Source: Dehalococcoidia bacterium
GTDB taxonomy: Bacteria > Chloroflexota > Dehalococcoidia > UBA2979
Direction of reading: 5' to 3'
Assembly: GCA_009379925.1 (NCBI GenBank)
Contig: WHSU01000008.1
Location: 1-64,000, forward strand
Length of the DNA stretch: 64,000 nt
The notes under the pieces are model-generated. The model was not told where the DNA came from, searched no databases, and was given only the letters and a program-made list of their open reading frames with translations. Positions 46,412-51,089 of the stretch are shown here, one piece after another. How positions within the stretch are numbered: position 1 is the stretch's first letter; the number at the start of each line of letters is the position of its first letter. The position numbers and the translations under genes are program-made.

Positions 46412-46441
46412 CGACGGCCGGGGAGCGCTCCCCGGCCGTCG
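46412..46441 (-). terminator. Rho-independent terminator for the thiamine operon (minus strand)
   Basis: Perfect palindrome CGACGGCCGGGGAGCGCTCCCCGGCCGTCG followed on the minus strand by TCTTTTTTGT (plus-strand A-run 46403-46408). Confidence 0.85.
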
Positions 46442-46454
46442 ACAGGTAAAGGGT

Positions 46455-46485
46455 GCCCCGGTCCTGGCTGCCGTCGGACCGGGGC
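46455..46485 (-). terminator. Second hairpin immediately upstream of the terminator
   Basis: Perfect 10-bp stem GCCCCGGTCC - 11 nt - GGACCGGGGC between stop 46540 and the U-tract hairpin. Confidence 0.5.
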
Positions 46486-46539
46486 GGTGCAAGGGGTCCA
46501 GTCCTTGCATCACTTTCATTGCCCCGGACGGCGCGGATG

Positions 46540-47685
46540 TTACGCCGGTCCCGAAGAATCTCCGGATTGCAGCAACTCGGCGCCGACGCCCTCGAGCGCC
46601 ACCGAGGCGGAGGCGCCCGCGTTCTGGGTGAGCGCGTTGGCGTCACGCCAGCACCGGCCCAGATCGCTGGAGGCGAACAGGGCGCTGGTCCCGGCGGCCT
46701 CGTACAGGAGCTGTGCCGCTCGTGCCCCAGAGCTGGCCGCATGCACGGAGGCCAGTCGAGTCCGTGCGCGTGCCTCGGCGGTTAGTGCCCGTCCCTCGAC
46801 GACAGCATCCCAAGAAGCGTGTGCGGCTTCGTAGAAGAATGCGCGGGCTGCGCCAACGAGCGCCTCCGCCTCGGCGTAGCGGATGCGGGCATCCGGCCGT
46901 TCCGCGAGCAACGCCTCGCTGCCCTTCGGGCGCTTGGTACGCGCCAGCGCGCGGAACGCCTCCAGCGTGTGGCCCGCAATCCCCAGGGCGACCGCACCGA
47001 AGGCGAGTGCGGCGTTCAGGTCGAAGGGGAACCGGTACAGCGGCCCCGGCTCGCGGGCGGGTTCATCGAACAGCGTGAACGTGCGGTCATCCGGGACGAA
47101 GCAACCGTCCACCGTGAAGTCGTGGCTCCCGGTCGCGCGCAGTCCCGACACGTCCCACGCCTCGATGACGTGGACGGCGTCGCGCGGGACCGCGAAGGCG
47201 CGCACCCGAGGCGGGTCGCGGCCATCCTCCACCACGCAAGTAGCCGTGAACCACGTCGCGTGCGGCGCGCCGCTGGCGAAACGCCAGCGCCCCTGCACCT
47301 CGATGCCGCCGTCGACGGGCCGTCCTCGGCCGGTGGGTGCTCCGCTGCCGGCCACGACCGCCTCTCGGGGTCCGAACACCTCGCGCGCCGTGTGTTCCGG
47401 CAGGAAGCCGGCGAAGAGCCCCGCACCGCCGCCGATCATGACCGTCCAGCCGGCAGCGCCGTCCAACCGCGACACTGCTTCGTAGACCTCCAGGGTGTAG
47501 GGGATCGACAGTTCGTCGTCGCCCATCGAGCGGGGCATCCAGAGCCGGAGCAGCCGCTCGTCGTGCATCGCCTCGATGACCTCCGGGACGATGCGGCCCA
47601 GGCGCTCTGACTCGGCCGCGGTCTCGCGCACCAGCGGCGCGATGCGTTCCACGGCCGCCAGAACCTGTTCGCGTGAGCGGTTCAT
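46540..47685 (-). CDS. Acyl-CoA-dehydrogenase-fold flavin-dependent monooxygenase-like protein (group D, HsaA/DszC-like)
   Basis: LLRLWMPRSMGDDELSIPYTLEVYEAVSRLDGAAGWTVMIGGGAGLFAGFLP, IEVQGRWRFASGAPHATWF, VSGLRATGSHDFTVDGCFVP; start overlaps the ATPase stop by 4 nt. Confidence 0.85.
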   Translation of the reverse strand: MNRSREQVLAAVERIAPLVRETAAESERLGRIVPEVIEAMHDERLLRLWMPRSMGDDELSIPYTLEVYEAVSRLDGAAGWTVMIGGGAGLFAGFLPEHTAREVFGPREAVVAGSGAPTGRGRPVDGGIEVQGRWRFASGAPHATWFTATCVVEDGRDPPRVRAFAVPRDAVHVIEAWDVSGLRATGSHDFTVDGCFVPDDRTFTLFDEPAREPGPLYRFPFDLNAALAFGAVALGIAGHTLEAFRALARTKRPKGSEALLAERPDARIRYAEAEALVGAARAFFYEAAHASWDAVVEGRALTAEARARTRLASVHAASSGARAAQLLYEAAGTSALFASSDLGRCWRDANALTQNAGASASVALEGVGAELLQSGDSSGPA

Positions 47686-48488
47686 GGCGCACTCCGCTGG
47701 CCGGAGGGGACGGCGCGCGGCTCCTCTGGGGGCGTGACGCCTTCCAGCGCATCGAGGACGCGCGCCTTCAGTTCGACAAACGCCGGCGTGGTCGTGTCGC
47801 GCGCCGTCCGCGGCCGTGGGAGCGGCACATCGATGGTCGCGACGAGGCGCCCTGGACGCCGCGAGAGGATGTAGACAACGTCCGCCAGCACGAGCGCCTC
47901 CTCGATGTCGTGGGTGACGAGCATCACCGTGCGGCCATCGCGCCGCCAGACCTCCTGTAGCCACGCGTGCATCTCGCGGCGCGTGATGGCGTCCAGCGCG
48001 CCGAATGGCTCATCGAGCAGCAACACCGGGCGCGGCATCAGGAACGTGCGCAGCAGCGCGAGGCGCTGTCGCATCCCACCGGAGAGCTGGGAGGGCCACG
48101 CCTGCTCGAAGCCGGACAGCCCGAAGCGCTCCATCAGCACCTCGGCGCGCTCGTGCGCCTCGGCTCGGGGTACGCCGGCGATCTCCGCGCCCAGCGTGGC
48201 GTTCGCCAGCACGCGCCGCCACGGCAGCAGCAGGTCACGCTGCGGCATGAAGCTCACGCCGCCCGGTTCGCCGATGACCTCGTGCCCGTCCACCGCGGCC
48301 CGGCCTTCCGAAGGACGGAGCAGGCCCGCGAGCACGCGCAACAGCGTGCTCTTGCCAGAGCCGGACGGCCCCACGACCGCGGCGAACCTGCCCTGGGGCA
48401 CCTCAAGCGACAGCCCGTCGAGGGCGAGCACGGGCGGCGCCCCCGCGAAGCGGTGGGTGAGGTGCTGGACGCTGATGCCGGCGGTCAT
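47682..48488 (-). CDS. thiZ: ABC transporter ATP-binding protein (ThiZ-like)
   Basis: VVGPSGSGKSTLLRVLAGLL (Walker A), QLSGGMRQRLALLRTFLMPRPVLLLDEPFGALD (signature and Walker B), LVTHDIEEAL; operon context with TPP riboswitch. Confidence 0.85.
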   Translation of the reverse strand: MTAGISVQHLTHRFAGAPPVLALDGLSLEVPQGRFAAVVGPSGSGKSTLLRVLAGLLRPSEGRAAVDGHEVIGEPGGVSFMPQRDLLLPWRRVLANATLGAEIAGVPRAEAHERAEVLMERFGLSGFEQAWPSQLSGGMRQRLALLRTFLMPRPVLLLDEPFGALDAITRREMHAWLQEVWRRDGRTVMLVTHDIEEALVLADVVYILSRRPGRLVATIDVPLPRPRTARDTTTPAFVELKARVLDALEGVTPPEEPRAVPSGQRSAP

Positions 48489-48493
48489 CGTGG

Positions 48494-49573
48494 CTAGCTC
48501 TCCGGGAGGTATTCGTTGGTGAAGGTGGCGTCCGGGTCGACCTCGGTCTCCGTCAGGCCGGCCTCGCGCAAGAACGCCTCGAAGCGTTCCCAATTCTCCG
48601 GGTCCTGCACGCCCCACGGCTGCCCGTCCGCCGCGTAGAGCGGCGCGTGGTACTCCGCGCTGGCGCGCACCAGGCCTTCGTCCAGCTCGGGCGCGGCCGC
48701 CAGCAGTGCATCCGCCGCCGCGTCGGGGTCTTCGATGGCGCGGTCGTACCCGCGCGCCGTCGCCTCCAGGAAGGCGCGGACGAGATCGGGCTGCTCCGCC
48801 AGCATCGTCTCGTTGGTGATGAACGCGGGGGTGTACCAGTCCGGGATGCAGTCCAGGTAGTCGACGAACTTGAGGCTCGACACCTCGACGCCCTCGACCT
48901 CGCTCGCTCGGAGCGCGTCCCAGCCCTCGAAGACCCACACGAAGTCGAAGCGGTCCTGCTCCATCCCGGCCAGGTAGTCGATGTTGCCCACCTCGACGAA
49001 CTCCACTTGCGAGGGGTCGCCGCCGTCGCACTCCACCAGCGTGTTGAGCAGCTCCTGTTCCAGCGCCCCGCCGAAGCCGCCGTAGGTCTTCCCCTGGAGG
49101 TCTGACGGGCGTTCGATGCCCTCTGAGGCGAGGGCCATGAGGCTGGAGGCGTTGAACGGCAGGATCGCGGCGATGGACACGACCGGCGCGCCCTCCGCGC
49201 GGGCGGGGATGATCGACTCCGCGACGCCGATGCCAAATTCGGCCTGGCCGGCAGCCACCACGGCGACGCCACCGGCGGTCGCCGGCTCGACGATCTCGAG
49301 GTCGAGGCCGGCCTCCTCGTACCAGCCTTCCGCTAGTGCGATGTAGATGCCGGCGTGGTGGTTGTTGGGCGTCCAGTTCAGCATCAGGGTCACCTCGGTC
49401 AGCTCGCCCGACGCCTCCGCTGTGCCGGTCGCTGCGGACGTGGGGTCCGCGTCCGCCGACGCCGGGTCGTCGTCGTCGCAAGCGACCAGGGTGGCGGTCG
49501 CGAGCGCCAGCAGCGCCAGCACGGTCGCGCCGAGCCGCGTCGTGCGCGCCGTCCGGCGTGGAGTCGTCGTCAT
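48494..49573 (-). CDS. thiY: NMT1/THI5-like ABC substrate-binding lipoprotein (ThiY-like)
   Basis: Lipobox LVACDDDD; LMLNWTPNNHHAGIYIALAEGWYEEAGLDLEIVEP; FGIGVAESIIPARAEG; TPP riboswitch operon. Confidence 0.87.
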   Translation of the reverse strand: MTTTPRRTARTTRLGATVLALLALATATLVACDDDDPASADADPTSAATGTAEASGELTEVTLMLNWTPNNHHAGIYIALAEGWYEEAGLDLEIVEPATAGGVAVVAAGQAEFGIGVAESIIPARAEGAPVVSIAAILPFNASSLMALASEGIERPSDLQGKTYGGFGGALEQELLNTLVECDGGDPSQVEFVEVGNIDYLAGMEQDRFDFVWVFEGWDALRASEVEGVEVSSLKFVDYLDCIPDWYTPAFITNETMLAEQPDLVRAFLEATARGYDRAIEDPDAAADALLAAAPELDEGLVRASAEYHAPLYAADGQPWGVQDPENWERFEAFLREAGLTETEVDPDATFTNEYLPES

Positions 49574-50385
49574 CGCTCTTCCCCCTCGGTCGACACATAT
49601 CGGTAAGGCATGGCGAGTCGCGCGATGAGGTGCACCGCGGCGAACATCGCGATGCTGACGGCTGCGATCACGATCACGGCGACCAGCACGCGGTCGACGC
49701 GGAATGCGCTCTGCGCACGCGTGATGAAGAGCCCCAGGCCGGAGCTGGCGCCCACCCACTCGCCAATCACCGCCGCCAGCACGGCGTAGGTGGCGCTGAT
49801 CTGGAGCCCGGCGAAGAACGAGGGCAGCGCCGAAGGCACGAGGACGGAGCGCAGCACCTGCCAGCGTCCGGCGCCCATGCCACGCACCAACTCGATCAGG
49901 TCGCGGTCGGCGCGGAGCAGTCCGTCCGTGGTGGCGACCGCGATCGGGAAGAAGCCGACCAGCGCCACGATCAGCACCTTCGGCGTGAGCCCGAACCCGA
50001 ACCAGACGACGAGCAGCGGCGCCATCACGATCATCGGGATGTTCTGCGACAGCACCAGCAGCGGGTAGAAGGCCCGACGCAGCTGCGGGATGCTCACGAC
50101 CAGCGCCGCGAACGCAACCCCGACCACGATGGCGAACCCGAGGCCGACGATGGCCTCCGTCATCGTCGTGCGGATGTGGTCCGGCAGCGTAGAGCGCACC
50201 TCCAGGAAAGCGGTCCACACGTCGCTCGGCGGCGGGAGCATGTACCCCGGCACGGCGAACGTGCGCACGCCCACTTCCCAGGCCGCGAGCAGCAGCACAA
50301 TCAGCGCCACGGGCGGCGCCGCCATCGCGGCCCAGCGCGCCAGCCGCGACGCGCGCCGCGCGCGGCCGCCGGCGGTGCTAGCCAC
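49570..50385 (-). CDS. thiX: ABC transporter permease (ThiX-like)
   Basis: AWEVGVRTFAVPGYMLPPPSDVWTAFLE, SQNIPMIVMAPLLVVWFGFGLTPKVLIVALVGFFPIAVATTDGLL, ATYAVLAAVIGEWVGASSGLGLFI. Confidence 0.88.
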   Translation of the reverse strand: MASTAGGRARRASRLARWAAMAAPPVALIVLLLAAWEVGVRTFAVPGYMLPPPSDVWTAFLEVRSTLPDHIRTTMTEAIVGLGFAIVVGVAFAALVVSIPQLRRAFYPLLVLSQNIPMIVMAPLLVVWFGFGLTPKVLIVALVGFFPIAVATTDGLLRADRDLIELVRGMGAGRWQVLRSVLVPSALPSFFAGLQISATYAVLAAVIGEWVGASSGLGLFITRAQSAFRVDRVLVAVIVIAAVSIAMFAAVHLIARLAMPYRYVSTEGEER

Positions 50386-50680
50386 GGAACTTCGAGGTCA
50401 GGCTCTCCATGGTGGAGCCGGAGGCCTCGTCCGCCGACTGGGCGAATTTCACGACGCTGACGACGCTCCGCGCGCCCGCTTCCAGGCACGCCTCGTGGAC
50501 CCGCCGGACAAGCGGCCACAGCGCCTCCGGCTCCCCCTCGATCGTCGTGCCGAGCGGGTCGACCTCATACCGGAGGCCCGACTGCTGGATGACGGCGATC
50601 GCCGCCTCGACGTGCGCGTAGCGGTTGTCGCCGCTACCGGGCGGGTTGGGCAGGCATTCGATCTCCACGAGCACAGGCAC
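50378..50680 (-). CDS. MTH1187/YkoF-like thiamine-binding domain protein
   Basis: LVEIECLPNPPGSGDNRYAHVEAAIAVIQQSGLRYEVDPLGTTIEGEPEALWPLVRRVHEACLEAGARSVVSVVKF matches the small thiamine-binding family; GTG start; first gene after the riboswitch. Confidence 0.85.
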   Translation of the reverse strand: MPVLVEIECLPNPPGSGDNRYAHVEAAIAVIQQSGLRYEVDPLGTTIEGEPEALWPLVRRVHEACLEAGARSVVSVVKFAQSADEASGSTMESLTSKFRG

Positions 50681-50792
50681 ACCTCGCTGTCCGCGACGGC
50701 GCGCAGCCGGGAACCATGCTCGAAGGTCGAGTGTGTAGTGAATGGGCTGCGCGTGCGCGCAGCGAGCGACCGTGCTCGCTCTGCAAAGTGGA

Positions 50793-50875
50793 CCGCTTCC
50801 CTACGCTCGCATTACCGAGGTCAGGTTCCTGGGGTGGTCCCACGCGGGATCTCAGCCTTGCGGCCCCCCCAGCGG
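50793..50875 (-). promoter_or_regulatory. TPP riboswitch (THI element)
   Basis: Minus strand CCGCTGGGGGGGCCGCAAGGCTGAGATCCCGCGTGGGACCACCCCAGGAACCTGACCTCGGTAATGCGAGCGTAGGGAAGCGG; contains CTGAGA, GAACCTGA, GGTAATGC..GCGTAGGGAA; P1 CCGCT/AGCGG. Confidence 0.95.
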
Positions 50876-51089
50876 CGCACCGGTATTCCGACCGTTGCAA
50901 TCGCGATGGTATGTCGCGGACCTGCCGCACGCAATGGATTCCGAGCTCACCCCGCCCATCGCGCCCCTATCGCGCGAGCACGCGCGAGCCCACCGGCGGA
51001 TGCACGAGCGCCGGAGACTGAGGAACGGCGGAGGCCCGTCGAGAATCAGGACGAGGCTCGTGAACCTCGACGGCCCCGAGGAGGAGTCC

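Follow-up and report, generated by a model that had tools for sequence, protein, structure and literature searches.

A group-D flavin monooxygenase-like gene as the last cistron of a TPP-riboswitch ThiXYZ transporter operon in a Dehalococcoidia bacterium

The riboswitch operon and its last gene

The window analysed here is a stretch of 64,000 nucleotides from a Dehalococcoidia bacterium of the phylum Chloroflexota (contig WHSU01000008.1, assembly GCA_009379925.1), and its minus strand carries a thiamine pyrophosphate (TPP) riboswitch, four transport-related genes, a gene encoding a flavin monooxygenase-like protein (FMO) and a terminator-like hairpin (Table 1). These elements form one tight unit, which confirms the operon described in the original prediction, made from the sequence alone. 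The operon, its riboswitch and, in two genera, the coupling of the FMO gene to the ThiZ gene are evident from the sequences, and from them we infer co-transcription of the genes and an FMO substrate related to thiamine (vitamin B1).

Table 1. Features of the riboswitch operon in the window, in order of transcription
Feature	Positions	Strand	Evidence
TPP riboswitch aptamer	50781..50880	minus	RF00059, cmscan 66.5 bits vs gathering score 54.3, full-length 1-105/105
MTH1187/YkoF-type thiamine-binding protein	50378..50680	minus	PF01910, 64.2 bits; TIGR00106, 42.3 bits, below its cut-off of 54.7
ThiX-like ABC permease, GTG start	49570..50385	minus	PF00528; orthologues 49-69% identical in equivalent operons across the family
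ThiY-like substrate-binding protein (NMT1/THI5-like)	48494..49573	minus	PF09084, 207.8 bits
ThiZ-like ABC ATPase	47682..48488	minus	PF00005, 103 bits; orthologues 51-69% identical in family operons
Group-D (acyl-CoA-dehydrogenase-fold) flavin monooxygenase-like protein (FMO), 381 aa	46540..47685	minus	phmmer to Rv3094c, AlphaFold2 model, Foldseek
Intrinsic terminator-like hairpin, 13 bp, 11 GC pairs, then CTCTTTTTTG (T tract)	46412..46441	minus	

The THI-box predicted at 50793-50875 lies inside the RF00059 match, which was the sole Rfam match across the window. The whole leader did not fold better than shuffled sequences (z -0.34), and the riboswitch claim therefore rests on the Rfam covariance match and on its recurrence before orthologous operons. 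With a leader aptamer and with the NMT1/THI5-like binding protein, the permease and the ATPase encoded in one unit, the gene set is that of a TPP-riboswitch-controlled ThiXYZ transporter. Overlaps of 4-8 nt had been claimed for most junctions and were found at three of the four, between the thiamine-binding protein and ThiX (8 nt), ThiX and ThiY (4 nt) and ThiZ and the FMO (4 nt), the start codon of the latter being inside the ThiZ stop (ATGA); the fourth junction, ThiY/ThiZ, is a gap of 5 nt. The U-tract hairpin noted after the last gene was also found, about 100 nt past the last stop codon, and it has the longest stem among the terminator-like sites of the region, which numbered 3 versus 2.5 expected by chance. 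The single promoter-like match on the operon strand (49236-49209, within the ThiY gene) is weak, with about 0.5 expected by chance. PADLOC gave no match and no indication of an anti-phage role, which was discarded.

The FMO had been described as a flavoprotein with features of group-D monooxygenases rather than of CoA-ester dehydrogenases, and this assignment was upheld. The best NCBIfam match was HsaA, although its 169.8 bits are far below the cut-off of 450 and identity with this 3-HSA monooxygenase was consequently rejected; the HPAH equivalog gave 111.5 bits (cut-off 650). A phmmer search of the PDB revealed Rv3094c as the nearest solved relative by sequence (E 1.2e-65), followed by HsaA-group hydroxylases and HPAH. 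An AlphaFold2 model built from 23 sequences (mean pLDDT 88.9) had as top Foldseek match the complex of Rv3094c with flavin mononucleotide (FMN) (7f74; TM 0.89, 39% identity in the structural alignment), then HsaA, XiaF and HPAH. The best 20 matches comprised these four proteins and putative hydroxylases; the entry at rank 21 is named putative acyl-CoA dehydrogenase, yet it groups with 5z8t, a named flavin-containing monooxygenase, and solved entries that bear the plain name acyl-CoA dehydrogenase appeared from rank 49 onward. The FMO is group-D-like and nearer to monooxygenases than to CoA-ester dehydrogenases. The flavin-pocket residues G113, F136, S138 and T185 are kept, S138 being present in 71 of 71 homologues, and flavin binding is likely; the predicted fold and the pocket can be read from the sequence, and monooxygenase activity would be expected from them. 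No partner flavin reductase is encoded in the operon, and the genome was not searched for one.

Distribution of the operon and of the ThiZ-FMO linkage

Sampling covered only a part of the class and phylum, with at most 400 genomes per search, and the gene absences reported here derive from six-frame family searches of incomplete genomes. A ThiY match at E<=1e-20 was found in 30 genomes (GTDB family of the window; 44 genomes in the order). In total, 81 thi loci were considered, 21 from the family (the window and 20 orthologous loci that were read) and 60 further Chloroflexota ThiY loci. The riboswitch was present at all 17 family operons with their upstream side on the contig, and a TPP match was obtained at 57 of the 60 further loci with a model derived from 19 riboswitches, of which 18 lie next to these transporters or to the other thi operons of the genome. 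Because an equivalent riboswitch operon recurs across family and phylum loci, the transporter unit is ordinary for Chloroflexota. TPP regulons of Chloroflexi have been described as consisting mostly of transporters, in thiamin auxotrophs (PMC3766115).

An FMO gene follows ThiZ at two of the 81 loci, those of the window genome and of G220, a genome from a second genus of the same family. The order in G220 is ThiX-ThiY-ThiZ-FMO, the FMO is 55% identical to that of the window, and its GTG start overlaps the ThiZ stop by 4 nt (GTGA). Since it recurs in a second genus, this gene order is beyond chance; the genes flanking the operon in the window had no match on the short G220 contig. Both FMOs are sisters in the FMO tree (support 87/91, branch not starred), with branch lengths of 0.51 for the window and 0.44 for G220, whereas the ThiXYZ tree keeps the two transporters apart. 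These trees would fit either one capture with later losses or gene transfer together with the operon. The third-position GC content is 0.84 in the window FMO gene versus 0.90-0.93 in the rest of its operon, and that of the G220 FMO gene is normal. This type of ThiY and the FMO clade occur together in two family genomes only, and the genes are adjacent in both; a third family genome with the FMO clade (G211) had no ThiY match. The coupling in both genomes with ThiY and FMO supports the link from a very small sample, all linked cases coming from two draft genomes that are about 87% and 90% complete.

Members of the FMO family are numerous in the class, where they were found in 46 of 197 genomes (E<=1e-20), many of which carry several copies. 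The other close homologues examined (42-53% identity, from the class and Thiomicrorhabdus) had no thi genes or TPP element nearby, and several unlinked homologues were found near genes resembling, by eye, NADH-dehydrogenase subunits. A further thi-FMO link was found neither in the class and phylum searches and at the 60 phylum thi loci nor in a scan of GTDB contigs, which used two peptide patterns only and may miss distant members, and a wider linkage was set aside, these searches having given no third case. The proposed linkage to thiamine genes thus stands as a rare one: the FMO belongs to a TPP-controlled unit, and the ThiXYZ-FMO order with its 4-nt overlap recurs in a second genus. Homologues separated from THI elements and thiXYZ, which the original prediction had regarded as evidence against itself, are largely but not wholly what was found, since all other close homologues examined are unlinked and G220 is linked. 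No earlier work combining a TPP riboswitch, thiamine salvage and a monooxygenase was found in the open literature searched, in agreement with the suggestion that the linkage is possibly undescribed.

Other elements were observed beside these genes. On contig C53 of the window genome, a c-di-AMP riboswitch (73.1 bits; L038, 1628-1763) lies about 5 kb from a paralogous FMO gene. In L097 (8131-9609), ThiZ is followed co-directionally by a gene for a different flavoprotein (FAD_binding_2, PF00890); L098, L099 and L103 have similar genes, and the distance from ThiZ is up to about 80 nt in two of these genomes and 0.5-1.2 kb in the two others. In four genomes of the genus g9 (L088, L091, L092 and L094), cobalamin-type riboswitches lie downstream of ThiZ at a distance of about 0.7-4 kb, so that B1 and probable B12 loci are neighbours.

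Transporter cargo and thiamine genes of the host genomes

Comparison of the window ThiY with the PDB gave an E value of 2.7e-67 for 4nmy, over the whole mature protein, and of 2.2e-32 for 3ix1, which binds formylaminomethylpyrimidine (FAMP). PMC10586155 lists 4NMY with thiamin bound. As a control, the ThiY of L300, a locus that also carries ThiD and what looks by eye like a TenA frame, was compared and proved nearer to 3ix1 than to 4nmy. As the window ThiY is nearest to a thiamine-bound protein and most genomes with the operon lack ThiC, ThiE and TenA, the transporter looks more like an importer of thiamine than of hydroxymethylpyrimidine (HMP), and its cargo would be thiamine or a thiamine derivative, for which the ThiY-4nmy evidence is only suggestive. 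On the same grounds, the reading in which the operon serves mainly for the import and salvage of HMP was weakened.

Among 18 family genomes examined as a panel, one had ThiC, three had ThiE above the cut-off and three had TenA; thiamine pyrophosphokinase (PF04263) was found in none of the 18, with matches in the named control genomes. Owing to this scarcity of ThiC, ThiE and TenA, most organisms of the family appear to depend on a supply of ready-made thiamine or thiamine phosphates. Those without PF04263, mostly also without ThiE, may import TPP or thiamine monophosphate, or use an unrecognised kinase. The only panel genome with ThiC (G212) carries it together with two ThiE/TenI matches on one contig (C190), which may be foreign, the genome having 6% contamination.

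The window genome is an exception, because ThiD, two ThiE/TenI matches, three TenA matches and a ThiO-like gene (by eye) were found in it; of the genes for which a genome check had been suggested, ThiD, ThiE and TenA are present and ThiC was not found. The TenA matches are located on contigs C24 and C70, and none is among the five cistrons of the operon. Contig C24 carries a second TPP-riboswitch operon (L052, 8068-11746), in which TenA comes after thiY2-thiX2-thiZ2; a group II intron and recombinase-like and transposase-like genes lie in the same region. A third TPP riboswitch, on contig C70 (L053, 5122-8005), precedes ThiD and a ThiO-like oxidase, with ThiE/TenI matches and two tandem TenA matches downstream. 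One of the reasons why the proposed new salvage route was not supported in its stated form is that an ordinary operon for precursor salvage (TPP-thiYXZ-tenA) already exists elsewhere in the genome. Neither ThiE nor TenA was detectable in G220 (about 90% complete), and a shared role in HMP salvage in this genome and that of the window is therefore unlikely.

Possible roles of the monooxygenase-like protein

B1 auxotrophy is common among Chloroflexota and among aquatic bacteria as a whole, and compounds formed by thiamine breakdown account for a real share of the B1 pool (PMC10470507). The interpretation tentatively favoured here is a B1-related role, in which a TPP-riboswitch B1-uptake operon of the kind common in Chloroflexota would have captured the FMO gene in one small lineage as its last, translationally coupled cistron. 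Under low TPP, the riboswitch would let the importer and the FMO be expressed at the same time, and the FMO, most likely taking reduced flavin from a separately encoded reductase, plus O2, would oxidise a compound related to B1 that the transporter imports, or a by-product of that compound; alternatively, the substrate could be something arising when B1 is short. If a TPP-controlled monooxygenase does act on such compounds, this would be an oxidative step of B1 salvage not described in the literature searched. A more specific proposal, that the FMO is a new flavin-dependent step of B1 acquisition that repairs or remodels imported damaged thiamine or a congener oxidatively under TPP starvation, in hosts without ThiC and, in the case of G220, also without detectable ThiE and TenA, appears doubtful.

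Several observations weigh against a B1-related role. The FMO gene is missing from 19 of the 21 family operons and, within about 6 kb, from 60 of the 60 phylum loci, and its presence at only two of the 81 loci means that it is dispensable for the transporter. The G220 contig starts inside the ThiX gene, leaving any riboswitch off the contig, and TPP control is thus predicted for the window only. The usual C-terminal catalytic histidine is replaced by Asn355 in the window FMO. In addition, the second ThiY of the window genome, next to TenA, is also nearer to 4nmy than to 3ix1, and consequently this comparison does not settle thiamine versus pyrimidine.

A passenger gene is almost as likely as the B1-related role, and as a possible explanation it would consist of a general-purpose FMO (for aromatic, sulfur or xenobiotic oxidation) that was inserted behind ThiZ on a single occasion, was inherited by two genera and plays no part in B1 metabolism. 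The abundance of the family in the class, the separation of the examined close homologues from thi genes and TPP elements, with NADH-dehydrogenase-like genes in the vicinity of several, the many family operons without FMO and the lower third-position GC of the window copy all agree with it. However, the 4-nt overlap persists through about 45% protein divergence in two genera, the third-position GC of the G220 gene is normal, and a gene useless under low TPP would be odd to retain under a TPP switch. If the FMO is indeed a passenger, caution is required against inferring function from operon membership alone.

The precursor-salvage step of the original prediction, by which the FMO would make a usable precursor of thiamine from an imported pyrimidine of the HMP type (an aminomethyl pyrimidine, for instance), is improbable. 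An imported pyrimidine would be useful to the window genome, which lacks ThiC and has ThiD, ThiE and ThiO-like genes, and the ThiY family takes in FAMP- and HMP-related proteins, but this genome already has TenA beside a second thiYXZ, the ThiY of the operon is nearest to a thiamine-bound protein, and the product would be unusable by the known route in G220, an FMO carrier without detectable ThiE. Very improbable is a degenerate or repurposed enzyme that, having lost its active-site histidine, no longer works as a normal monooxygenase in the window genome. Of the 56 homologues with a residue at position 355, 54 carry His and two carry Gln, and Asn was never seen there; position 350, also Asn in the window FMO, is His in 53 of 67 homologues; both window codons are AAC, and the sister FMO of G220 keeps both histidines. 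His-to-Asn changes in related enzymes alter the chemistry and do not always abolish it, and the window copy may have altered chemistry. Nevertheless, it retains an intact reading frame and the flavin pocket, its structural model is a confident one, and its branch in the FMO tree is of ordinary length.

Among known systems, the Chloroflexota ThiXYZ transporters under TPP riboswitches (PMC3766115) share the riboswitch, gene set and gene order with the window operon, whereas its fifth cistron is missing from all but one other examined locus. The closest solved relative of the window ThiY, the Clostridioides difficile binding protein 4NMY, is distant from it (roughly 40% identity by eye) and was compared by sequence. 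TenA/YlmB operons for pyrimidine salvage, one of which (thiYXZ-tenA) is on contig C24 of the window genome, have in common the TPP control and a ThiY-type transporter, and differ in that TenA and YlmB-like genes are missing from the window operon, whose FMO is unrelated to either. Rv3094c is reported to catalyse the FMN-dependent sulfoxidation of ethionamide; its residues G113, W115, F136 and S138 lie at the flavin, F221 serves as a gate and H351 acts as the proton donor (PMC9904262; 7f74). The window FMO has G113, F136 and S138 in common with it, but in the phmmer alignment W115, F221 and H351 correspond to Gly115, Ala225 and Asn355, so the two substrate pockets are different, transfer of its substrate is unjustified and ethionamide-like S-oxygenation was rejected as a guide; a reductase gene is also missing from the window operon. 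The two-component group-D monooxygenases HsaA, HPAH C2 and DszC resemble the FMO in fold and HMM matches, although its scores are far under the HsaA and HPAH equivalog cut-offs. The transporter operon is thus of an already known type, and the FMO as fifth cistron is the new part, a modest lead rather than an established salvage route.

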